A program made the translations under genes and the position numbers. A stretch of DNA of 64,000 nt from Bdellovibrionales bacterium (lineage in GTDB: Bacteria; Bdellovibrionota; Bdellovibrionia; Bdellovibrionales; Bdellovibrionaceae). The notes under the pieces were generated by a model. The model was not told the DNA's origin, ran no database searches, and saw only the letters and a program-made list of their open reading frames with translations. Positions 2,765-40,433 of this stretch are shown here, piece after piece. Position 1 is the first letter of the stretch. Each line of letters starts with the position of its first letter. Location: assembly GCA_018266295.1 (NCBI GenBank), contig JAFEAQ010000011.1:1091626-1155625 (forward strand), given 5' to 3'.

Positions 2765-3715
2765 TCATAAACGCGCTGATTTTTTTTCCTTCGAAAATAT
2801 TTTACTCAGCCCCCACTGTTTTGCACATAACAAATTATGAGTGCGACAAAGAACTCTTAAGTTATTTTGGTCATCCTCACCACCACAAGCCAATGGCACA
2901 CAGTGGTCTATCTGAAGCTGATAATGGCTTTCGCACTTCTTACCCGAGACAGGCTCCACATACTCACAGCAATGACTTGCCTTCTGAAGCAACTCTCTTC
3001 GAACTTTCAAAGTTATGTATTTTCGCTTCTGCTTAGTGAAGAAGCCTCGCGTTGATCTTTCGGACCGCAAGCCTTGTTTTTCTTTATCAGGTTGAGTTTT
3101 CCCCAAAACCCTTTTCAGATGCGCCTCTGCTAAATAATCCATAACTTCAACCCAACTTCCATCTGGCAATGAATGCGACAGAAGGTCTTTAACTTGATTC
3201 CATCTCTCCATTTGCTCCAACGATACAGTGAGCTCAAGCCTCACACTCTGATCTCTTTGTGGTTTTACGACCTCATGCATTTGAATGGGCTGATTGAATT
3301 CCATCGCCAAAAATTTTTGAGTTTCAAAATTCGACTTATTTTCAATTTTCTCGAGAATCTCAGAGGCTTTTTCGAGACTCACAGAAACGCCGGCTTTCTT
3401 CTCTTCTTTCAGACACTTCTGCACTTGAGTTAACTGAGTCAAATTCAAAGACCCGTCCTCGAGCTTCGCCGCCAAATGAGGAATTTGTTTTAACAACCTT
3501 GCCGACTGAATACGGCGATAAGCACTGCTTTCCCCGTAACCGAGATGCTTCGTAAGATACTCATACATCGAACCAAATCCAAGATCCGCATACAGCTTCC
3601 GCGATTCCATCTCATTGATGTGCCATAAAACCAAGTGCGTGATTTTTCTCTCCGTCTTTGCCAGCTTCTCAAGGCGAACAAGCAATTCGCTATTTGAAAT
3701 TTTCGTGAGATCCAT
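2765..3715 (-). CDS. HNH endonuclease domain protein
   Basis: 316 residues. The N-terminal two thirds are helical (LVRLEKLAKTERKITHLVLWHINEME, then YLTKHLGYGESSAYRRIQSARLL, a DUF222-like or helix-turn-helix-like region). The C-terminal part is an HNH nuclease fold: a CxxxxxxxxKxC zinc-type pair (CEYVEPVSGKKC), LQIDHCVPLACGGEDDQNNLRVLC with the His and Asn of the motif, and a final C-x-x-HN pair. It would cleave DNA with a divalent metal. Proteins with this architecture occur in several copies in Bdellovibrio genomes; their role is not known. No restriction methylase is nearby, so I do not call it a restriction enzyme. Confidence 0.88.
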   Translation of the reverse strand: MDLTKISNSELLVRLEKLAKTERKITHLVLWHINEMESRKLYADLGFGSMYEYLTKHLGYGESSAYRRIQSARLLKQIPHLAAKLEDGSLNLTQLTQVQKCLKEEKKAGVSVSLEKASEILEKIENKSNFETQKFLAMEFNQPIQMHEVVKPQRDQSVRLELTVSLEQMERWNQVKDLLSHSLPDGSWVEVMDYLAEAHLKRVLGKTQPDKEKQGLRSERSTRGFFTKQKRKYITLKVRRELLQKASHCCEYVEPVSGKKCESHYQLQIDHCVPLACGGEDDQNNLRVLCRTHNLLCAKQWGLSKIFSKEKKSARL

Positions 3716-28147: not shown

Positions 28148-29857
28148 ATGAACTCTCAAACTGCAAAAACATCTCCGATCCGCACTGTTCTAAAAGAACT
28201 CGTGCTGCCTTATTGGACACGTTCGGAAGATCGATGGCGCGCTCGTGGACTTTTAGCACTCACTCTCGTGCTCATCATGGGTATGGTTTACGCCTTAGTT
28301 TTGCTGAATCGCTGGAACCAGGCGTTCTACGATGCTCTTCAGAATCTTGATAAAGCCGAATTTGTCAGCCAGCTGTGGCGTTTTTTCTTTATTGCGCTGT
28401 TTTACTCCGTGATCATGGCCTACAAGTTTTATGTCCTGCAAAGTCTCGCAATCGGCTGGCGCAAATGGATCACCGAAAAGAGCTTGCACCGCTGGCTGAG
28501 TGAAAAGAATTTTTACTACTGGCAGTTCAACGGACATCAACACGACAATCCGGATCAGCGTCTTTCCGAAGATATTCACGAACTCACCGATCTGAGTCTT
28601 GAGATTTCCGAAAAGGTCCTCCGCGAGTTCATAACTTTTGTGTCGTTTATCGGCATTCTGTGGGGTCTTTCAAGCTCCTTCAAATTCACGGCCTTTGGTT
28701 ATGATATCGAGCTTTATCGTTACCTTGTTTGGGTTTGCTTGTTTTACGCGGCGATCGGTACTTTCATCGTTCACAAAATCGGAAATCCGCTCTCGACACT
28801 GAACTTCATGCAGCAGAAACTCGAAGCCGACTTCCGTTACTTCTTAGTGCGTCTGCGTGAAAACAGCGAGAATGTGGCTTTACTCAACGGTGAAAAAGCC
28901 GAACAGCAAAAGCTTTCGACGAAGTTCTTCCAAGTCGTGGGTAATTTCAAAGCGCTCATCTCTCGCCAGAAGAAACTGATTCTAACGACGAATATTTACG
29001 GTCAGTTGGCTTATATCTTTCCGTTTGTGGTTGCATCACCAAAAGTGTTCACCAAAGAGATCACTCTCGGCCAGCTTTTCCAAATCAGCAGCGCCTTTGG
29101 CCAAGTTCAAGGGTCGGTCTCTGTGTTTGTGGATATGTATGCGAAGATCGCGCGACTGCATTCGGTCGCTCTGCGTTTGGGCGGATTCTTAAGCTTGCTC
29201 GAAGAAAATCGCGAGCTTCGCGAAAAAGGCCTGAGTGGAAAATTCCATGCGACCGATGGTGCGGATCTTACGACCGAAGACCTTCGCGTTCTGACTCCTC
29301 AACAGCAGACTTTGCTGACAGGTATGAACTTGAAGCTCGCTCCGGGAACGCGTTTGCTAATCACTGCGCCGTCTGGAAAAGGCAAAACCACTTTGCTTCG
29401 GACGCTGAATGGCATCTGGCCTTTCATTGATGGACAGATTCGTTTGCCTCGTCACAGCCATCGCCTCGTGCTGACACAAAAAGCGTATCTACCGATCGGA
29501 ACTCTGCGTGCGGCTCTTGCCTATCCTCTTGAGGCGGAAGCCTTCAGTAATCAAGACATGGTCTCAGCTCTTGCCAGCACGAAACTAAATTCGCTGATTC
29601 AGCACCTCGATGAAGAAGACAACTGGTCACAGCGCCTTTCTTCGGGCGAACAGCAACGCCTGGCTCTCTCGCGCGCCTTCTTGCAAAAGCCGCAGGTTTT
29701 ATTTTTAGATGAAGCCACTTCGGCCCTTGAAAAAGACACCGAAGCCGAGATCTATCACGCTCTGGTTGCGGCTTTCCCGCAAATGATTCTTATCAGTTTC
29801 AACCACGAAACGGGCCCGCTGACAGCATTCCATAACGAGTCCTTAAGCCTCTCTTAA
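28148..29857 (+). CDS. SbmA/BacA-type ABC transporter with fused ATPase (YddA-like)
   Basis: 569 residues in two parts. Residues 30-330 are the ABC_membrane_2 domain shared by SbmA, BacA, YddA and Rv1819c: NRWNQAFYDALQNLD, FYYWQFNGHQHDNPDQRLSEDI and LNFMQQKLEADFRYFLVRLRENSE are hallmark segments, with about six helices. Residues 385-565 are an ABC ATPase: Walker A APSGKGKTTL (A in place of the usual first G), signature LSSGEQQRLALSRA, and Walker B VLFLDEATSALE. SbmA/BacA proteins import modified antimicrobial peptides or B12. It is upstream of the radical SAM enzyme on the same strand with a 233-base gap, so it may share the peptide system's substrate but need not share its transcript. Confidence 0.9.
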   Translation: MNSQTAKTSPIRTVLKELVLPYWTRSEDRWRARGLLALTLVLIMGMVYALVLLNRWNQAFYDALQNLDKAEFVSQLWRFFFIALFYSVIMAYKFYVLQSLAIGWRKWITEKSLHRWLSEKNFYYWQFNGHQHDNPDQRLSEDIHELTDLSLEISEKVLREFITFVSFIGILWGLSSSFKFTAFGYDIELYRYLVWVCLFYAAIGTFIVHKIGNPLSTLNFMQQKLEADFRYFLVRLRENSENVALLNGEKAEQQKLSTKFFQVVGNFKALISRQKKLILTTNIYGQLAYIFPFVVASPKVFTKEITLGQLFQISSAFGQVQGSVSVFVDMYAKIARLHSVALRLGGFLSLLEENRELREKGLSGKFHATDGADLTTEDLRVLTPQQQTLLTGMNLKLAPGTRLLITAPSGKGKTTLLRTLNGIWPFIDGQIRLPRHSHRLVLTQKAYLPIGTLRAALAYPLEAEAFSNQDMVSALASTKLNSLIQHLDEEDNWSQRLSSGEQQRLALSRAFLQKPQVLFLDEATSALEKDTEAEIYHALVAAFPQMILISFNHETGPLTAFHNESLSLS

Positions 29858-29955: not shown

Positions 29956-30049
29956 TATTGCTAAGTTTCTGTTTTTACTTGGTTTTCATCTGTGGTGGCA
30001 AAAGGAAAACTGGCCCTTGAATTGCACATTTTCACCCTTGGAAGTGGAT

Positions 30050-30090: not shown

Positions 30091-31398
30091 ATGGAACTGC
30101 GACGCTACAAAGACATTCTAGCGCTGAAATCAGAAGAGGGCACTCTTCTGGCGTTCCATTCGCGCAATATGGAAGTCGCACAAATTTCCGAAGACGCTTG
30201 GGTGAACATGAGCCCGACAACCTTGCTGAATTCGACTCCTTCTGAAGCCGTCCTCAAAGAGTGCGAAGCCATCGCTGAGCTCAAAACTTGGAACCAAGAA
30301 GAAAACGCTGAGGTTAAAACCAGCAAGATCAGCAACAACATCCGTTTCCTGACAATCAACGTGACTCAAATCTGCAACCTCCACTGCTCATACTGCGCAG
30401 CCGGTGGCGATGGAACTTTCGGCGATAGCATCGCCAAAATCTCTATCGAAAAAACTTTGCCGCAGATTAAATTCTTCCTCGATCGCCTGCCTGCGGGCCT
30501 AAGTTTCAACGTGAGCTTCCTCGGTGGTGAGCCTTTACTTTACGCTGAAGGCCTCGAGATGATCGCAAAGTACATTGCTGAGATCGCACCTGAGCGCACT
30601 GTGAACTACACGATCATCACGAACGGCACGCTGTTAACAGATAAGAATGTCGATCTACTCGCGCGCATGAAAGCAACAGTAACCATCAGCTTGGATGGCC
30701 CTGCAGAAATCAACGATCGCATGCGTCCGACAAAGAACGGAACTTCATCAACGGCAATGATCGTGAAAGGCCTTGAAAAAGTCCTCGCACGCAAATCTGA
30801 ATTCAGCCACGTGATGATCCACGGAGTTTTCGACAGCCACAATATGGAGCTCGTGAAAGCTTACGAGTTCTATTCTCAGTTCAACGTGGACAGCTACGAT
30901 TTCTCATTCTCGGTTTCTGACAACAACCCGCGCGCGACTCAAGAGTACATGAAACAAATGACTCAAGTTGCAGCTTTGGCCTATGCAAAAGGCGGAGAAG
31001 TGGCTCTCAGAAAGATCCGCGCGTTTGAACAACATTTTCAGTCTTTGGATCAACAACGCCGTACCGAGAACTATTGCGGTGCCGGCAAGTCTTTCTTGAT
31101 GATCGATGCCCGCAATCAGATTTACACATGCCCTTGGGATGTGAACGAAAAGAAAGAACAAGTTGGCCAAGGAACGGAGTTAAACGAAAAGGCTTTGGAA
31201 GCGTACCAAAAGCCCATCCTCGAGCAGAACAAGTGTGAAAACTGCTGGGCGCGATTCCTGTGCGGCGGCGGCTGCATGTTCGCCCATAAGCATGGCTCAG
31301 GATCTAAGAACGTTAAAGATACGCAATTTTGCGAAAGAACAAGATTTATGGTGGCGCTGGCACTGATCTACTACGAAAGGTGTCGAAGCGCTGCTTGA
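30091..31398 (+). CDS. Radical SAM/SPASM peptide maturase
   Basis: 435 residues. Residues 1-85 form an N-terminal domain without cysteine clusters, possibly a peptide-recognition (PqqD-like) element. The radical SAM motif is CNLHCSYC (Cys95, 99, 102), then GGEPLLYAEGLEMI, ITNGTLL and SLDGPAEINDRMRP. The C-terminal SPASM domain is complete: Cys329, Cys347, then C-x2-C-x5-C-x3-C (382, 385, 391, 395) and Cys414, ligands for two auxiliary 4Fe-4S clusters. Enzymes of this class install thioether or carbon-carbon links, or epimers, in ribosomal peptides (PqqE, QhpD, SCIFF maturases), or activate sulphatases. The sulphatase route is unlikely because no sulphatase is near and a small peptide gene follows 31 bases later. 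Cofactor set and role as peptide maturase are inferred; the reaction is unknown. Confidence 0.9.
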   Translation: MELRRYKDILALKSEEGTLLAFHSRNMEVAQISEDAWVNMSPTTLLNSTPSEAVLKECEAIAELKTWNQEENAEVKTSKISNNIRFLTINVTQICNLHCSYCAAGGDGTFGDSIAKISIEKTLPQIKFFLDRLPAGLSFNVSFLGGEPLLYAEGLEMIAKYIAEIAPERTVNYTIITNGTLLTDKNVDLLARMKATVTISLDGPAEINDRMRPTKNGTSSTAMIVKGLEKVLARKSEFSHVMIHGVFDSHNMELVKAYEFYSQFNVDSYDFSFSVSDNNPRATQEYMKQMTQVAALAYAKGGEVALRKIRAFEQHFQSLDQQRRTENYCGAGKSFLMIDARNQIYTCPWDVNEKKEQVGQGTELNEKALEAYQKPILEQNKCENCWARFLCGGGCMFAHKHGSGSKNVKDTQFCERTRFMVALALIYYERCRSAA

Positions 31399-31429: not shown

Positions 31430-31597
31430 ATGATGAAATTCCTAACTCTACTAAAGGAAAAGATGATGGAAAAATTAGAGAAAAAACACATTAAGAAGCT
31501 GAAGCCACAAACATCTCAGCCTTCACATTTCGGTGCTGGTAACGGCGGCAATCCGTGCCCTCCAGTTGGTGGCGATATTTTGGTACCAAACAACTAG
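31430..31597 (+). CDS. Putative RiPP precursor peptide (55 residues)
   Basis: Too short for usual gene lists. ATG at 31430 (a second ATG follows) with GGAG 5 bases upstream, ending TAG at 31595-31597. The first 26 residues are a charged amphipathic helix of Met, Leu, Lys and Glu (leader-like). The remainder is helix-free and unlike it: KPQTSQPSHFGAGNGG, then NPCPPVGGDILVPNN, with one Cys (residue 43), three Gly-Gly or Gly-Ala-Gly points and no basic residue after Lys25. This leader plus Gly/Asn/Pro/Cys core is the layout of radical SAM-modified peptides. Gaps are 31 bases to the maturase gene and 18 to the kinase gene. The coding call is good; the RiPP role is inference. No export peptidase is adjacent. 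Confidence 0.75.
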   Translation: MMKFLTLLKEKMMEKLEKKHIKKLKPQTSQPSHFGAGNGGNPCPPVGGDILVPNN

Positions 31598-31615: not shown

Positions 31616-33493
31616 ATGGCTCTCCCTCCTTCGCTGACTAAAACAAAAGGCCCTTTCAAAGGTGGAATCCTGTATTCCGTCTTGCGCCTTGTTTTGGCTT
31701 GCGCGATGGGGATTTTCATCAGTCAGCTCAAACTCGATTCTTGGGAATCCATGCTCTACGACATGCGCATTCGCTTGTTGCCGGAGCCAGCTCCTTCGGG
31801 TCAGATCGAAATGATTTTGACCACATCGCGGACTGTAGAAACCCTCAAAGGGATTCCTACTGCGAAGGAGCAATTGGAACTCCTTAAGAACCTCGAGCGT
31901 GAAGAGCCTCTGGCGGTTCTTTACATTCAAAACCTCGGTGAGCTTGAAGGCAGTGCGGAAGATAAGAAAGCCTTCGCCGTTGAGGCATTGAAGCTCAACA
32001 ACCTGTACATGGTCAGCCAGGATCTCGAGATGAAAGGCGAAGAAGGAAAACTCCGCTTGCCGGAACCTCTCGATACGATCGAGCTCTTCCCTGGCCCCCG
32101 CACAAGTGACGGCGACGTGCTTGCGCAGGATAAAGTGACTCGTCGTATGATGATTACTTATCAGGATCGTCAGATGATTCATCCGTTCATCGCAAGCCTC
32201 GTAAATCCGGAGATGTCTGAGAAGAAAAATATCCGTGGCTTGTTTGAGTTCTTTGACTCTGAACAGGTGTATATCAATTACCGCAAAGCCGGCACATATC
32301 CTATGACGACCTTTGAAGACGTCATGGATAAACGTTTTGAGCCGGGCCACTTTAAAAATAAAATCGTTCTGATCGGTAACGATCACGGCGGCTCCGTGCG
32401 TGACTACGTGAAGACGCCTTTCTCGAAGGACGCGAAGGCTATGACCCTCGTCGAACTTCACGCCAACATGCTTGATACTTTGATTCAAAATAAAGCGCCG
32501 ATTCAGGCGACTCCTTGGTTGAACGTGCTTGTCACGATGCTGACTTCGATCATCACCGTTTACGTGCTCTTCACGATGAAGCCAATCCGAAGTCTTACGA
32601 TTCTGGCGGCGACCGGCGGTGTTTTGCTCGTATTCAGTGCGATTGCCTTCTGGCCTGCGGGTTATTGGGTAAAAATGGCGCATCCATTCCTTGCAATTTT
32701 CTTATGCTATTACTTCTTTATCCCCTACCGTTTGATCATCGAGAATCGCCGTAGCTGGGAATACTTCCAGAAGAACAAATTGCTTTCTCAAGTTGAGGAA
32801 TTAAAGGGCAATTTCATTTCGATGATGTCGCATGATTTGAAAACGCCGATTGCCCGCATTCAAGGCATGACCGATGTAATTCTCAAGGACCAACAGCCCT
32901 TGAGCACTCAGCAACGCGAAGCCGTGGATACGATCCGTCATTCTGGCGATGATCTTTTGAAGTTCATCAACGCGATTTTGAACTACGGGAAGATCGAAAG
33001 CCAAGGTGTTGAGCTTCACATGCAAAGTCGGGACGTTAATTCATTGCTGAAAGACGTCATCCATAAGCATGAGTTCTTGGCTAAGGTAAAACGTATTCCA
33101 ATCAAGTTTGAATCCGAGCCACTGTTCCCGATCCAGGTGGATCCAGAGCTCATGAAGCAAGTGTTCTCAAATCTGATTGAGAACGCGATTAAGTACAGCC
33201 CTGAGGAATCTCAGGTGCATGTTCACAGCGAAGAGATCAACGGCAAAGTGATCGTTCGCGTCCAAGACAGCGGACCTGGAATTCCAGAGGACGAAGTGAA
33301 CAATATTTTTATGAAGTTTTTTAGGAGCAAGAATGCGAAAAGTTCTCCGATTAAGGGATCGGGACTCGGTTTGTATCTTGCTAAATATTTTACAGAATTG
33401 CACCAAGGCAGACTCTTTGTTGAAAGTACCTATGGAAAAGGAAGTACTTTTACTGTAGAACTGCCTCTGGAACAGGGGAGGTCACATGCTTAG
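31616..33493 (+). CDS. CHASE2-domain sensor histidine kinase
   Basis: 625 residues. One membrane helix (about 18-37), a CHASE2 extracellular sensor domain (about 40-300, closing with FKNKIVLIGND and VELHANMLDTLIQNK), three more helices (about 302-372), then a HisKA domain with phospho-acceptor His406 in SMMSHDLKTPIARIQG and a HATPase_c domain with N box IENAIKYSP, G1 VQDSGPGIPEDE, F box IFMKFFRSK and G2 GSGLGLYLAKYF. CHASE2 sensors usually detect small periplasmic ligands. It starts 18 bases after the peptide gene and overlaps the regulator gene by 8 bases, so it is the likely partner of both: it could read the modified peptide, or a condition that controls it. Confidence 0.93.
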   Translation: MALPPSLTKTKGPFKGGILYSVLRLVLACAMGIFISQLKLDSWESMLYDMRIRLLPEPAPSGQIEMILTTSRTVETLKGIPTAKEQLELLKNLEREEPLAVLYIQNLGELEGSAEDKKAFAVEALKLNNLYMVSQDLEMKGEEGKLRLPEPLDTIELFPGPRTSDGDVLAQDKVTRRMMITYQDRQMIHPFIASLVNPEMSEKKNIRGLFEFFDSEQVYINYRKAGTYPMTTFEDVMDKRFEPGHFKNKIVLIGNDHGGSVRDYVKTPFSKDAKAMTLVELHANMLDTLIQNKAPIQATPWLNVLVTMLTSIITVYVLFTMKPIRSLTILAATGGVLLVFSAIAFWPAGYWVKMAHPFLAIFLCYYFFIPYRLIIENRRSWEYFQKNKLLSQVEELKGNFISMMSHDLKTPIARIQGMTDVILKDQQPLSTQQREAVDTIRHSGDDLLKFINAILNYGKIESQGVELHMQSRDVNSLLKDVIHKHEFLAKVKRIPIKFESEPLFPIQVDPELMKQVFSNLIENAIKYSPEESQVHVHSEEINGKVIVRVQDSGPGIPEDEVNNIFMKFFRSKNAKSSPIKGSGLGLYLAKYFTELHQGRLFVESTYGKGSTFTVELPLEQGRSHA

Positions 33494-35018
33494 AGTTTTG
33501 GTGGTCGATGACGATCAGGGGTTAAGACTCTCAGTAAAAACAGCGCTCACTTCTTCGAATCGTTTCGAAGTTGAAGAAGCTTTTGACGGCTTGAATGCCA
33601 TCGAAAAAGTAAAAGCACCTGAGAACTCAGGCGCGAAGAAATTCGATGTTGTTATTCTTGATGTCGATATGCCACGTGTTAACGGTCTGGAAGCTCTCAG
33701 ACTGATCAAAGAACACGATCCAGGTATCATCGTATTGATGATCACGGCGCATGCAACTTTGGACCACGCGGTTCAAGCGGTTAAAGATGGTGCTTACAAC
33801 TATCTTTCAAAGCCTGTTTCCGGCGATGAGCTTTTGGCTCTCGTGGATAAAGCGGTTTCTGCTCACACTATGATTTCAAACATCGCGGCGTCTGCGCCTG
33901 TGTTGGTTGAAGCAGGCCGTAAAATCATCGGCAATACACAGCAAATGCAAAAGGTATTCAACATCATCCATCGTTTGGCGAAGGTTGATACCCCTGTTTT
34001 GATTCGCGGTGCTTCTGGTTCTGGTAAAGAGCTCGTTGCTAAAGCAATTCACTACAACTCTGCTCGTAAAGACGAAAAGTTCGTAGCCATCAACTGTTCT
34101 GCAATCCCTGAGAACTTATTTGAGTCTGAACTCTTCGGTCACGAAAAAGGTTCTTTCACTGGCGCTGATCAGCGCAAAATTGGTAAATTCCAGTTTGCTG
34201 AAGGCGGAACATTATTCTTGGATGAAGTCGGCGATATGCCACTCATGATGCAAGTTAAGATCTTGCGCGTGCTTCAAGAGAAGATGTTCACTCCTGTAGG
34301 TTCTAACCGTGAGATTTCTACGAACGTAAGAATCGTGGCGGCGACCAACCGTCCTTTGGAAGACATGATCAAAGCCGGCACCTTCCGCGAAGACTTGTTC
34401 TATCGCTTGAACGTTGTACCTATATTCTTGCCTGCTTTGGCAGATCGCAAAGACGATATCGAAAACTTGATCAACATCTTCATCAAGAAGTTCAATGCGG
34501 CCCATGGCAAACGCATCTCTGGAGTTGCTCCAGACGCTTTGTCAGCGCTCAAAAAATACCAATGGCCGGGGAACATCCGTGAGTTGGAAAATGTGATCGA
34601 GCATGCTTTTGTTCTTGAGACGAACAACGTTATCACGTTGGCGTCACTCCCTGAGGCCGTTTTGGCCGCAGCGGGCGTTAACTTGATCGATGCATTGTCA
34701 CAAACGACGACTGTTGACATAAAACCAGGGGTTTCCGTGTCTGCGGACCTCGGTGATGATGAAGATTTAGGCGTTGTTGATGGCGAAGACCTCGAGCTCG
34801 ACAGCGAAGAAGGCGAAGTTGCAACTGTGTCTATTTCAGGTGGCAGTCTTGACTTCAATGCTCAAAAGGAAGCTTTCGAGAAAGAATTCATCATTAAGGC
34901 TCTGAAGACCTTCAAAGGCCGCATCAATCAAACGGCTTTGCATGCTAACATTCCGAAAAAGACCTTGCTCCGCAAGATCGAGAAATACGGGATTATTGCA
35001 AAGGACTACTCTAACTAA
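33486..35018 (+). CDS. Sigma-54-dependent response regulator (NtrC family)
   Basis: 510 residues. Receiver domain: acidic pocket VVDDDQG, phospho-Asp59 in VVILDVDMPRVNG, Thr and Lys109 (SKP). AAA+ domain (about 150-390): Walker A RGASGSGKELVAKAIH, GSFTGADQRKIG (the GAFTGA sigma-54 loop with Ser for Ala), Walker B GGTLFLDEVGDMP and R-finger FREDLFYRLNVVP. An acidic linker (about 420-450) then a Fis-type helix-turn-helix (about 468-505, INQTALHANIPKKTLLRKIEKYGI). Its start lies inside the last codons of the kinase gene; the two are a cognate pair. Promoters it controls must be of the sigma-54 type; candidates are at 29940 and 48820. Confidence 0.95.
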   Translation: MLRVLVVDDDQGLRLSVKTALTSSNRFEVEEAFDGLNAIEKVKAPENSGAKKFDVVILDVDMPRVNGLEALRLIKEHDPGIIVLMITAHATLDHAVQAVKDGAYNYLSKPVSGDELLALVDKAVSAHTMISNIAASAPVLVEAGRKIIGNTQQMQKVFNIIHRLAKVDTPVLIRGASGSGKELVAKAIHYNSARKDEKFVAINCSAIPENLFESELFGHEKGSFTGADQRKIGKFQFAEGGTLFLDEVGDMPLMMQVKILRVLQEKMFTPVGSNREISTNVRIVAATNRPLEDMIKAGTFREDLFYRLNVVPIFLPALADRKDDIENLINIFIKKFNAAHGKRISGVAPDALSALKKYQWPGNIRELENVIEHAFVLETNNVITLASLPEAVLAAAGVNLIDALSQTTTVDIKPGVSVSADLGDDEDLGVVDGEDLELDSEEGEVATVSISGGSLDFNAQKEAFEKEFIIKALKTFKGRINQTALHANIPKKTLLRKIEKYGIIAKDYSN

Positions 35019-36373: not shown

Positions 36374-36507
36374 GTTGGTGTGTTTTTATCAAGAAAAATA
36401 CCGGCAGTTATCGCGTTGTGTATAAAAATATATTTCCTAAATTTCGCGGTCATTGCCGGACTCGATAATTGACTGAGTATCGCAAGAACAATATCTTTCT
36501 GTCCCTC

Positions 36508-37038
36508 ATGACAATGAATCCCCTACCGCCTCAGGCATACACCAAAGACACGCTGACAAAAGCCTACATGTGGCTCGTGCATCAGAGTGACGCTATCAAG
36601 GAGCTCGCAACGACTCCTGATATCTTGGTGAGCTTGTTTCTGAAGGCTCAACGCAACGGGGACGAAGCTCTGGATACTCCAAGCATCCAAAATTTCAAAA
36701 AAGAGCTTAAAAGTTTAGCAGGTATGATGGGCGAACTTGATGGCGGCAAGCCAGCGGGAGCCGTCTTTGCTCAACCTTTGCCACAAGCGGCTCCACAAAT
36801 GGTTCAGCCGATGCATCAACCGCCTCCTCAGGCAGCACCGCAAGTTGTTGTACAACAGGCTAAACAGGTAAATATCCAGAATAATCACATGTCTATGGAT
36901 CTTGCCGGACAGATGGATGCGAAGAGCCGCTCCATGATCGCAGAGGTTCGCGAGCAATTAAATTTGAGCTCAGACCTCGAAGTCATCCGCCTTTTGGTCT
37001 CTTTGGGTTATCACAAAGCTAAAAGCCTATACTCCTGA
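36508..37038 (+). CDS. Hypothetical protein with Gln/Pro-rich linker
   Basis: 176 residues from the ATG at 36508; a second ATG at 36514 is equally possible, and an upstream TTG start at 36469 has no ribosome site. N-terminal helical domain (about 8-75, YTKDTLTKAYMWLVHQSDAIKELATTPDILVSLFLKAQ), a Gln/Pro/Ala-rich linker (about 88-125) and a C-terminal helical segment (RSMIAEVREQLNLSSDLEVIRLLVSLGYHKAKSLYS), which resembles a small ribbon-helix-helix or dimer helix. No family is recognised. It is soluble and precedes ileS on the same strand by 102 bases. Confidence 0.65.
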   Translation: MTMNPLPPQAYTKDTLTKAYMWLVHQSDAIKELATTPDILVSLFLKAQRNGDEALDTPSIQNFKKELKSLAGMMGELDGGKPAGAVFAQPLPQAAPQMVQPMHQPPPQAAPQVVVQQAKQVNIQNNHMSMDLAGQMDAKSRSMIAEVREQLNLSSDLEVIRLLVSLGYHKAKSLYS

Positions 37039-37140
37039 GAGCTTTTGACCGCCTGCTTCTAATCGCAAAACTCCAGTTAAATGGCTTAAATATTTGGCAT
37101 TTTTCGAATATACTAGCGGCTTCAATTTGAGGAGGCCCTG

Positions 37141-39921
37141 GTGTCTAGCACACTTCCTGATTACAAATCCACAGTGCGATTACCACAAACAGATTTTCCT
37201 ATGAAGGGAAACCTTCCCACGAAAGAACCAGAAATTCTGAAACAGTGGGACGATAAGAAAATCTATCAAAAGATGTCGACGAAAAACGCCGGCAAAAAAC
37301 CTTTTGTGTTTCCGGATGGTCCTCCTTATGCCAACGGTTCAATTCACTTGGGTCATGCGCTCAATAAGAATTTGAAAGACATCATCGTTAAATACAAAAA
37401 CATGAAGGGCTTCCCGACTGTTTTCATTCCAGGTTGGGACTGTCATGGTTTGCCAATCGAGCACAAAGTTTTAAAAGACTTGTCTGCGAAGAAAGTCACA
37501 AAAACTGATCAAGAGATCATGGCTCTTTGTCGTGCGGAAGCTCAACACTGGGTGGATCATCAACGCGTGCAATTCCGTCGCTTGGGGATCTTGGCTGATT
37601 GGGAAAATCCATATCTGACAATGTCTTCTGACTACGAAGCTGAAGAGGTTCGTGAGTTTGCTCGCGCCTTTCAAAAAGGTGATATCTATCGCGGCGAAAA
37701 ACCGGTTTACTGGAACTGGACTTTGAAAACTGCTTTGGCGGAAGCCGAAGTGGAATATCACAACCACAAGAGTCCTTCGATCTACGTCAAGTTCAACATC
37801 ACTGACAAAGCGACATTGGAAAAACTTGGCAACCCGAGCAAACCAACAAGCATGGTGATCTGGACGACGACTCCTTGGACGCTTCCGGCGAACTTGGGGA
37901 TCTCTTTGCATCCTGAATTTGAGTACAGCGTTTTCGATGCTGGCTCTGAAAACTTTGTGATCGCAAAACCGCTCAAAGAATTCTTCGAGAAGGATACGGG
38001 CGTAACTTTGACTGAAGGCAAGATCGTTAAAGGTAAAGATCTTGAATTCGGTAAAGCTCGTCATCCGTTCATCGATCGCGATTCATTGATCATCTTGGGT
38101 GAGCACGTCACTGCGGATGCTGGTACTGGCGCGGTTCATACGGCTCCAGGACACGGCGTGGATGACTTTAACGTCGGTGCTCGTTACAAACTCGGTGTTT
38201 TGAATCCGGTGAACGATGCCGGTGCTTACACAGATGAAGTGCCTGAATTCCAGGGCATGAACATCTTTAAAGCAAATCCTTTGATCGTTGAGAAGTTGCG
38301 CAACTCGGGCCACTTGATCGCGATGAAAGAGATCGAGCATAGCTATCCTCACTGCTGGAGAACGAAGACGCCCTTAATTTACAGAACAACTCCGCAATGG
38401 TTTATGGGCTTGGATTTGGAATCTTCGCAAATCCGCAAGAAAACCATGAAAGAGATCGAAAAAATTCAGTTCATCCCTGAATGGGGCCGTGCTCGCTTCC
38501 AAGCCATGATGGAAAACCGTCCTGACTGGTGCGTGAGCCGTCAACGTATCTGGGGTGTGCCAATCCCGATCCTCAACTGTAAAGCAACGGGTGAACCGTA
38601 TGCGAATTACGATGTGATGATGAAAGTCGCTGATATCATCGAAACACAAGGTGGTATCGAGGCTTACTATCGCGTTCCTGCGGATGAAATCGTGGGTACT
38701 ACTTGGAAAAATTCTGAACAAGCGAAGAAAGATCCTAAGTTCGGCTCTGAAGGTTTCCGTCATGGCCGCGACATCTTGGACGTTTGGTTCGACTCTGGTA
38801 TCTGCCACGCCGCTGTTCAAAAGCGCCGCCCTGGTATGGGTTTCCCAGCGGATATCTATCTTGAAGGCAGTGACCAGCATCGTGGCTGGTTCAATACTTC
38901 GATGCTGTCTTCAATGGCGACGAACGGACAAGCTCCTTATAAGGCGCTCTTAACTCACGGTTTCGTGGTGGATCCCCAAGGCCGTAAGCAAAGTAAGTCT
39001 TTGGGCAATCAAATCGATCCGAACGAAGTGTCGGCGAAGTCTGGTGCTGAGATCATCCGTCTTTGGACTGCCTATGAAGATTACGGTAAAGACGTCAGCT
39101 GCGGCAAAGAAGAACTCGATCGCGTGACTGAGACTTACCGTCGTATCCGCAACACGATGAGATTCCTGTTGGGTGCGGTGAATGACTTTGATCCTTCAAA
39201 AGACATGGTTCCGTATGAAAAACTCACGGCGATCGACCAATGGGCCTTGCATGAGCTTTATGAACTGACGGAGAAAGTGACTCAAGCGTATGACTCTTAC
39301 GAGTTCTACAAAGTTTATCACTTGCTCAATAACTTCTTTACGGTGGACTTGTCCGCAACGTACTTGGACGTGTTGAAAGACCGCTTATACACTTGGAAAG
39401 CCGATGGCCTTCCTCGCCGCGGTTCTCAGACGGTGCTTTTCTTGATCACAGACTATCTTGTGCGCATGATGGCTCCGATCTTGTCGTTCCTATCTGAAGA
39501 AGTTTATGGCTACGTTAAAGGGAATAAAGCAGAGAGTGTTTTCTTGTTGGACTTCCCTGAAGCTCCGATGGAATGGAACAATCCTTCGCTAAACCAAAAG
39601 TTTACGGGCTTGCTGAAAGTTCGTGGCGATGTGCAGAAGGTTCTTGAAAACCTTCGCGCCCAGAAAGTTATCGGGGCCAGCCTCGAAGCTTCTGTCACGA
39701 TCAAGGCTGAAGGCGATCTTTTAAAAGACTTGAAGAGCTTTAAGGATTTGCGTGAGTTCCTGATTGTCTCTAAAGTAGAAGTTGTCATGGGTTCTTACGA
39801 AGTTTTGGCTGAGAAGGCTCCTGGCGAAAAATGTGTGCGTTGCTGGACTTACTCGCCTGATATCAGTCAGGCTCCGGCGACCTTGGGTGTTTGTCCGAAA
39901 TGTGTTGAGGCACTAACATGA
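37141..39921 (+). CDS. ileS: Isoleucyl-tRNA synthetase
   Basis: 926 residues, usual length. GTG start with GAGGAGG 6 bases upstream. Class I motifs: HIGH-type GSIHLGHALNKNL and KMSKS-type GRKQSKSLGN (Gln in place of Met). The editing domain carries TTTPWTLPANLGI and GTGAVHTAPGHGVDD; WCVSRQRIWGVPIP is the usual IleRS block; the C-terminus ends in a zinc finger (CVRCWTYSPD ... CPKCVEALT). It charges tRNA-Ile. The lspA gene starts 4 bases before its end, the common ileS-lspA arrangement. Confidence 0.98.
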   Translation: MSSTLPDYKSTVRLPQTDFPMKGNLPTKEPEILKQWDDKKIYQKMSTKNAGKKPFVFPDGPPYANGSIHLGHALNKNLKDIIVKYKNMKGFPTVFIPGWDCHGLPIEHKVLKDLSAKKVTKTDQEIMALCRAEAQHWVDHQRVQFRRLGILADWENPYLTMSSDYEAEEVREFARAFQKGDIYRGEKPVYWNWTLKTALAEAEVEYHNHKSPSIYVKFNITDKATLEKLGNPSKPTSMVIWTTTPWTLPANLGISLHPEFEYSVFDAGSENFVIAKPLKEFFEKDTGVTLTEGKIVKGKDLEFGKARHPFIDRDSLIILGEHVTADAGTGAVHTAPGHGVDDFNVGARYKLGVLNPVNDAGAYTDEVPEFQGMNIFKANPLIVEKLRNSGHLIAMKEIEHSYPHCWRTKTPLIYRTTPQWFMGLDLESSQIRKKTMKEIEKIQFIPEWGRARFQAMMENRPDWCVSRQRIWGVPIPILNCKATGEPYANYDVMMKVADIIETQGGIEAYYRVPADEIVGTTWKNSEQAKKDPKFGSEGFRHGRDILDVWFDSGICHAAVQKRRPGMGFPADIYLEGSDQHRGWFNTSMLSSMATNGQAPYKALLTHGFVVDPQGRKQSKSLGNQIDPNEVSAKSGAEIIRLWTAYEDYGKDVSCGKEELDRVTETYRRIRNTMRFLLGAVNDFDPSKDMVPYEKLTAIDQWALHELYELTEKVTQAYDSYEFYKVYHLLNNFFTVDLSATYLDVLKDRLYTWKADGLPRRGSQTVLFLITDYLVRMMAPILSFLSEEVYGYVKGNKAESVFLLDFPEAPMEWNNPSLNQKFTGLLKVRGDVQKVLENLRAQKVIGASLEASVTIKAEGDLLKDLKSFKDLREFLIVSKVEVVMGSYEVLAEKAPGEKCVRCWTYSPDISQAPATLGVCPKCVEALT

Positions 39922-40433
39922 TGAAGAAGAAGTATTTGTACCTGGCTGTTATTACCGGACTCCTTGTAGCTGCTGATCAGCTCGTGAAAATGTATATCCA
40001 TACACAGTTTCACTTGGGTGAATCTCTCGTGGTGATCCCGAACTTCTTTAACCTAACTTACGTGCGTAATTTCGGCGCGGCTTTCGGCTTTTTAGCTGAA
40101 AGTCACCCGACCTTCCGCGAAGCTTTCTTCTTGGCGATGCCGCCGATTGCATTGGTCATCATCTTGATGATCATGCGCGGAGTGAAAGACAACGATACCA
40201 AACAGATCGTCGCATTGTCTGCGATCTTTGGTGGTGCGATCGGTAACTATGTGGACCGCTTGCGTTTCCGTTATGTCATCGACTTCTTGGATTTCCACTT
40301 GAACAACAAATACAGCTGGCCGGCATTCAATATCGCCGACAGCGCGATTGTCTGCGGTGTGGGATTACTGCTCTTCATGATGCTCATGGAGACGCGGCAG
40401 AAAAAAGCTCAAGAGAGCGCAGCGAAGGCCTAA
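39918..40433 (+). CDS. lspA: Lipoprotein signal peptidase II
   Basis: 171 residues, four membrane helices. Catalytic aspartates are in GGAIGNYVDRLRF and FNIADSAIVCG, and NLTYVRNFGAAFGFL is the conserved NxGAAF region. It cuts prolipoprotein signal peptides after Lgt has acted. The start overlaps the ileS stop codon (ATGA) and two ATG codons are in frame. With lgt 1.6 kb away, the many lipoproteins of this window have their full maturation set here except lnt. A terminator overlaps the stop codon. Confidence 0.97.
   Translation: MMKKKYLYLAVITGLLVAADQLVKMYIHTQFHLGESLVVIPNFFNLTYVRNFGAAFGFLAESHPTFREAFFLAMPPIALVIILMIMRGVKDNDTKQIVALSAIFGGAIGNYVDRLRFRYVIDFLDFHLNNKYSWPAFNIADSAIVCGVGLLLFMMLMETRQKKAQESAAKA

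Follow-up and report, generated by a model that had tools for sequence, protein, structure and literature searches.

The closest described systems are radical-SAM enzymes of the SPASM class and their peptide substrates. In the SCIFF ranthipeptide system CteB/CteA (structures 5wgg and 5why), the N-terminal domain of CteB (RRE) binds the leader, one of the auxiliary clusters leaves a site free for the substrate cysteine, and Cys32 is joined to Thr34 with i,i+2 spacing (PMC8326336). PapB, the enzyme of the PapB/PapA system (freyrasin, a Cys-X3-Asp ranthipeptide), tolerates Glu as the partner as well as short spacings (PMC9413430). In the sulfatase-maturating enzyme anSMEcpe, an extra cysteine fills the auxiliary cluster site (PMC5715301). 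SCIFF-derived ranthipeptides are reported to act in clostridial quorum sensing (Chen et al. 2020, as cited in PMC8102284).

The locus described here lies in a window of 64,000 nucleotides from a Bdellovibrionales genome, which is the whole stretch of DNA analyzed. Our main reading, with a probability of about 0.6, is that a short ORF in this window encodes a Bdellovibrionales-specific RiPP precursor that carries a thioether on Cys43 and stands within a sigma-54 two-component circuit. If this is true, it would represent a RiPP family that is new, spans a whole lineage of bacteria-killing bacteria and is conserved in the manner of a housekeeping system, not scattered like bacteriocins. Literature searches on radical SAM/RiPP or CHASE2 in Bdellovibrio gave no paper that treats the locus.

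The radical-SAM enzyme and its distribution

The enzyme gene (30091-31398, forward strand) encodes a 435-aa SPASM radical-SAM peptide maturase with a Pfam Radical_SAM domain and an RRE-like N-terminus. Both motifs that define such enzymes are observed, namely CxxxCxxC (Cys 95, 99, 102) and the seven-Cys SPASM motif (Cys 329, 347, 382, 385, 391, 395, 414). These ten cysteines are invariant in 29 homologues, which share no further conserved cysteine. The nearest solved structure by sequence is CteB (5wgg, E 4e-29), and the structure model of the enzyme, which is confident (pLDDT 90), aligns with CteB over 397 residues from residue 6 on (Z 36.4), including the RRE-like region. The SPASM-class assignment made by an earlier sequence-only reading is thus borne out by both sequence and fold.

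The likeness to CteB covers the full-length fold with its RRE-like domain, the 3+7 cysteines and the inferred use of a cysteine donor. However, the two enzymes share only about 20% identity, and the present locus is found in Gram-negative predators, together with a sigma-54 two-component system. The named NCBIfam peptide-maturase models all score below their cut-offs: TIGR04064 (Nif11-like maturase) gives the best score, 166 bits against 518.7, followed by NF047865 (PapB; 164.3 bits against 340), while TIGR03974 (SCIFF maturase), TIGR03906 (QhpD) and TIGR03942 (anSME) reach 136.1, 120 and 91.9 against cut-offs of 425, 453 and 349, respectively. We therefore consider the enzyme to form a subfamily of its own. 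The precursor, unlike that of a Nif11-like maturase, fits no Nif11 model. PapB resembles the present enzyme in its Cys-based chemistry, which is inferred here, but no Cys-X3-Asp motif or conserved Asp occurs in the present precursors. QhpD, the quinohemoprotein amine dehydrogenase maturase, is likewise a SPASM enzyme and makes Cys-Asp/Glu thioethers, which the Glu of the C-P-E branch described below recalls; its substrate, however, is an enzyme subunit.

A search of 60 related genomes gave high-scoring enzyme matches across the family. Within the phylum, the enzyme is present in 81 of 369 genomes, all of them from three families of the order. The best matches outside the order have about 30% identity, and no similar precursor was seen beside these more distant enzymes from other phyla. 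Two individual loci may be mentioned: in relative G036 the enzyme lies at 3272168-3273442, and an entry titled Streptomyces griseus (CALQIT020000002.1, our L081) carries this Bdellovibrionaceae locus, and its title looks wrong.

The precursor peptide family

The ORF at 31430-31597 (forward strand, ATG...TAG) translates to MMKFLTLLKEKMMEKLEKKHIKKLKPQTSQPSHFGAGNGGNPCPPVGGDILVPNN. Its layout agrees with what the sequence-only reading had described, that is, 55 residues, GGAG 5 bases upstream of the ATG, an in-frame TAG, a cysteine at residue 43 and no Lys or Arg beyond residue 25. The start codon is uncertain. Two in-frame ATG codons at 31463 and 31466 (codons 12 and 13; products of 44 and 43 aa) are preceded by AAAGGA, and the precursors of most relatives start 2-10 residues ahead of HIKK; a product of 43-44 residues is therefore at least as likely. 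Consequently, the charged helix that had been assigned to residues 1-26 may be untranslated in part; the leader that is conserved is KKHIKKLKP (residues 18-26).

Short ORFs of the K-HIKK-x-KP ... C-x-P type were found on the same strand, 3' of the enzyme, in almost all loci where the sequence reaches far enough. The family is built of a K-HIKK-x-KP leader, a fast-evolving linker and a single-Cys core. The leader KKHIKKLKP (codons 18-26, 31481-31507, forward strand) is the probable enzyme recognition element, and its HIKK has a His and a first Lys that are at least 90% conserved among 42 homologues. The core NPCPP (codons 41-45, 31550-31564, forward strand; Cys43 at 31556-31558) contains the Cys and the Pro45 at +2 that are invariant within the C-x-P class. 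To avoid circularity, precursors were also chosen by the leader alone in the 76 loci with enough downstream sequence. A leader-detected precursor is present in 71 of them, always with a Cys near the C-terminus (71/71), and the cores belong to the C-x-P (65) or C-P-E (6) class; in the other five loci the peptide is of the C-x-P class and its leader has diverged. A precursor profile matched 27 of 60 genomes, once in each and always adjoining the enzyme or its kinase, although it misses diverged precursors that are recognizable by eye.

The pattern of substitutions differs between the three parts of the peptide. In seven close homologue pairs (pooled), we obtained pS 0.62 and pN 0.017 for the leader, pS 0.38 and pN 0.065 for the core, and pS 0.47 and pN 0.187 for the linker. 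The precursor is thus under purifying selection as judged from these comparisons, with almost only silent changes in the leader, few changes in the core and free variation in the linker. In addition, a leave-one-out profile made from 41 homologues, with the window peptide excluded, was searched against 1,846 window ORFs; it recovered the precursor at E 8.7e-9, and the next-best ORF had E 2.6. On the strength of sequence comparison alone, the 55-codon ORF is a real gene. Its shortness and the lack of a matching model in Pfam or NCBIfam could be taken to mean that it is not a gene, but homologues at about 70 distinct loci and selection at the protein level oppose this notion; the selection pattern and the leave-one-out profile refute it, and we give it practically no credence.

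The RiPP-like leader/core layout proposed from the sequence is supported by conservation of the leader and the Cys core next to the enzyme: the precursor is short, has a leader and a core, and adjoins a modifying enzyme whose N-terminal domain is of the leader-binding type. The proposal would have failed if relatives lacked the ORF beside the enzyme, but it is there, and the alignment of homologues shows the expected conservation of Cys43 and its flank together with a freely varying stretch 28-40. The distinction drawn from SCIFF peptides also holds, since SCIFF requires six Cys in about 45 residues, whereas the window precursor and nearly all homologues have one. CteA accordingly differs from the present precursor in its six Cys, against one near the C-terminus here, and in its leader.

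Two kinds of unusual loci were observed. Six loci (L060, L093, L101, L103, L104 and L112) form the C-P-E branch, in which a MKHIKK-type leader is kept and C-x-P is replaced; their precursors are natural variants for placing the putative cross-link. Locus L076 has two tandem precursor genes 3' of the enzyme (about 3447-3704) with the cores CIPIG and CIPSGLPNSSSN, and is the only clear case of two precursors behind one enzyme.

The putative cross-link

In the mechanism that we propose, the basic K-HIKK-x-KP leader would be bound by the RRE-like N-terminus of the enzyme, the precursor tail would enter the active site, and Cys43 would take the free site on an auxiliary [4Fe-4S] cluster, by analogy with CteB. 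A 5'-deoxyadenosyl radical would then abstract a hydrogen from a neighboring residue, most likely Cys+2 (Pro45, or Glu in the C-P-E branch), and the resulting thioether would close a small ring in the peptide. Asp or Gly, which had been suggested as link partners, find no support in this role: Asp49 and the core Gly residues are not conserved among homologues. Because only the Cys and the +2 position are fixed, the CteB link has the same spacing and PapB accepts Glu, we infer that Cys+2 (Pro, or Glu in the C-P-E branch) is the better candidate; this is a best guess, held with moderate confidence. We know of no report of proline as a thioether acceptor, and cross-linking of the Cys-x-Pro type would be chemically novel. 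Membership in the ranthipeptides (a Cys thioether to a non-alpha carbon) is likewise inferred and has support only from the enzyme lineage and the invariant Cys.

The enzyme might instead act like a sulfatase-maturating enzyme and oxidize Cys43 to formylglycine. This is suggested by the C-I-P-V-R tail of many homologues, which fits the sulfatase motif C-x-P-x-R, and by the place of anSME as a fold neighbor within the same SPASM superfamily; C-x-P occurs in 65 of 71 leader-detected precursors, and Arg is found at +4 in 20 of 70 C-x-P peptides. The likeness to anSME lies in the SPASM fold and in a substrate motif that resembles the tail of one clade here. The enzyme has 3+7 invariant cysteines, which fits enzymes whose auxiliary cluster is open, and lacks the eighth cluster Cys of anSMEcpe. 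The residue after Cys347, which occupies the place of the catalytic Asp277 of anSMEcpe, is Pro in 26 of 29 homologues and Asp in none. Furthermore, the sulfatase maturase model scores 92 bits against a cut-off of 349, the window core CPPVG has no Arg, and no sulfatase gene was seen at the locus. The route is thus weakened by the missing Asp and the missing Cys, and we consider it very unlikely; since both features set the enzyme apart from anSMEcpe, a thioether on Cys43 appears likelier than formylglycine, the modification itself being inferred. Another alternative is that the modification lies elsewhere, as a C-C bond, an epimerization or a link to +1, +3 or +4, and that Cys43 is retained to bind a metal or a cluster or to form a disulfide. 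SPASM enzymes have varied chemistry, the +1 (Ile, Val, Leu) and +3 (Val, Thr, Ile, Leu) positions are mostly aliphatic, and the Pro flanking the Cys might serve turn geometry only. Against this, there are no invariant positions besides the Cys and +2, and the nearest relatives of the enzyme are thioether formers; we regard this alternative as possible, albeit on the unlikely side.

Gene block, promoter and possible role

The precursor gene is followed by genes for a CHASE2 membrane histidine kinase of 625 aa (31616-33493, forward strand; Pfam CHASE2, HisKA and HATPase_c) and an NtrC-family sigma-54 activator response regulator of 510 aa (33486-35018, forward strand; Pfam Response_reg, Sigma54_activat and HTH_8). 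The gene order is well conserved, as the kinase comes next in all 36 relatives whose contig is long enough, and the regulator stands behind it in 33 of 35. A sigma-54 type -24/-12 element, TGGCCCTTGAATTGCA (GG-N10-GC), was observed at 30011-30026 on the forward strand, 65-80 bases before the enzyme start. The pattern TGG-N8-TTGCW occurs within 200 nt upstream of the enzyme in 58 of 73 loci, compared with 7 of 2,742 random windows (0.26%), although these 58 loci are related and hence not independent. The locus has the upstream GG-N10-GC element of a sigma-54 operon, while co-transcription and the transcription start are inferred only. Several genomes without the enzyme also have elements resembling this motif ahead of the kinase.

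The kinase is more widespread than the enzyme, with a homologue in 53 of 60 genomes, and about four gains or losses are required to place the enzyme on the kinase tree. The enzyme-less genomes keep the kinase and regulator in place, mostly ahead of the same conserved genes; none was found to have a C-x-P family peptide before the kinase, one contig being too short to tell. Because these genomes lack the peptide and retain the kinase and regulator, we infer that the enzyme and peptide move together and that their site is fixed. The locus has no conserved exporter, protease or signal peptide. An SbmA/BacA-like ABC protein is encoded just upstream of the enzyme (28148-29857), at this site only in this genome; as a candidate exporter it was rejected, being absent from the locus in the relatives; only one of 40 relatives encodes a similar protein (33% identity), at a different place in its genome. 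A peptidase C39 exporter was rejected as well, as domain matches in 13 of 30 genomes are mostly weak and none lies at the locus.

Our best reading is that the single-Cys RiPP family is new and is under, or feeds, a sigma-54 two-component circuit; its chemistry, export and role are inferred. The sigma-54 promoter would drive a transcription unit that includes the CHASE2 kinase and the sigma-54 activator. From this combination we infer that production of the peptide is governed by its own two-component circuit, on which the peptide probably acts back. Since the gene block includes a sigma-54 activator, autoregulation is the most straightforward reading, in the absence of transcription data. It can further be speculated that the peptide is the predators' own signal, with a thioether ring of the Cys-x-Pro or Cys-Pro-Glu type, and that the adjoining CHASE2 kinase senses it, so that through the sigma-54 regulator the peptide drives its own operon, but we hold this to be improbable. 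Such a peptide-pheromone identity rests on gene order and the promoter motif alone, and binding of the mature peptide to the kinase is an inference. No residue of the CHASE2 periplasmic region separates peptide-bearing from peptide-less genomes, and a search for a peptide-linked kinase signature yielded only three positions, all in HisKA (residues 397-462) and none in CHASE2. Since the sensor domain bears no mark of the peptide, a kinase ligand is only a hypothesis; a direct ligand role remains unproven, and the kinase also exists without the peptide.

A serious rival to the ligand hypothesis is that the modified peptide is an effector, an antimicrobial or a redox cofactor, whose production alone is controlled by the kinase-regulator pair without any contact with the kinase. 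Either the kinase and regulator are older than the peptide or they persist after its loss, given the 53 of 60 genomes with a kinase homologue and the enzyme-less genomes that retain both, and the sensor domain shows no adaptation to the peptide. On the other hand, the peptide is near-universal in the family, single-copy and confined to one site, unlike most bacteriocins, and there is no immunity or export gene; we rate this rival somewhat below an even chance. The reading of a peptide within a sigma-54 circuit has a parallel in the clostridial SCIFF ranthipeptides, which are also lineage-wide peptides of the same enzyme class with a regulatory effect; however, the cited text (PMC8102284) makes no mention of a kinase-regulator pair dedicated to the peptide and encoded beside it. 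As the peptide adjoins its likely regulator, its chemistry and role (signal, effector or cofactor) are directly testable in a cultured predator.

Some variation of the gene block was observed among the relatives. The regulator is upstream and divergent in L062; in L042 there is no regulator match, and an 842-residue ORF stands in its place. The order kinase-regulator-'PPQAYT' protein-IleS-LspA (36469-40433 of the window) is common in the order, whether the peptide is present or not.
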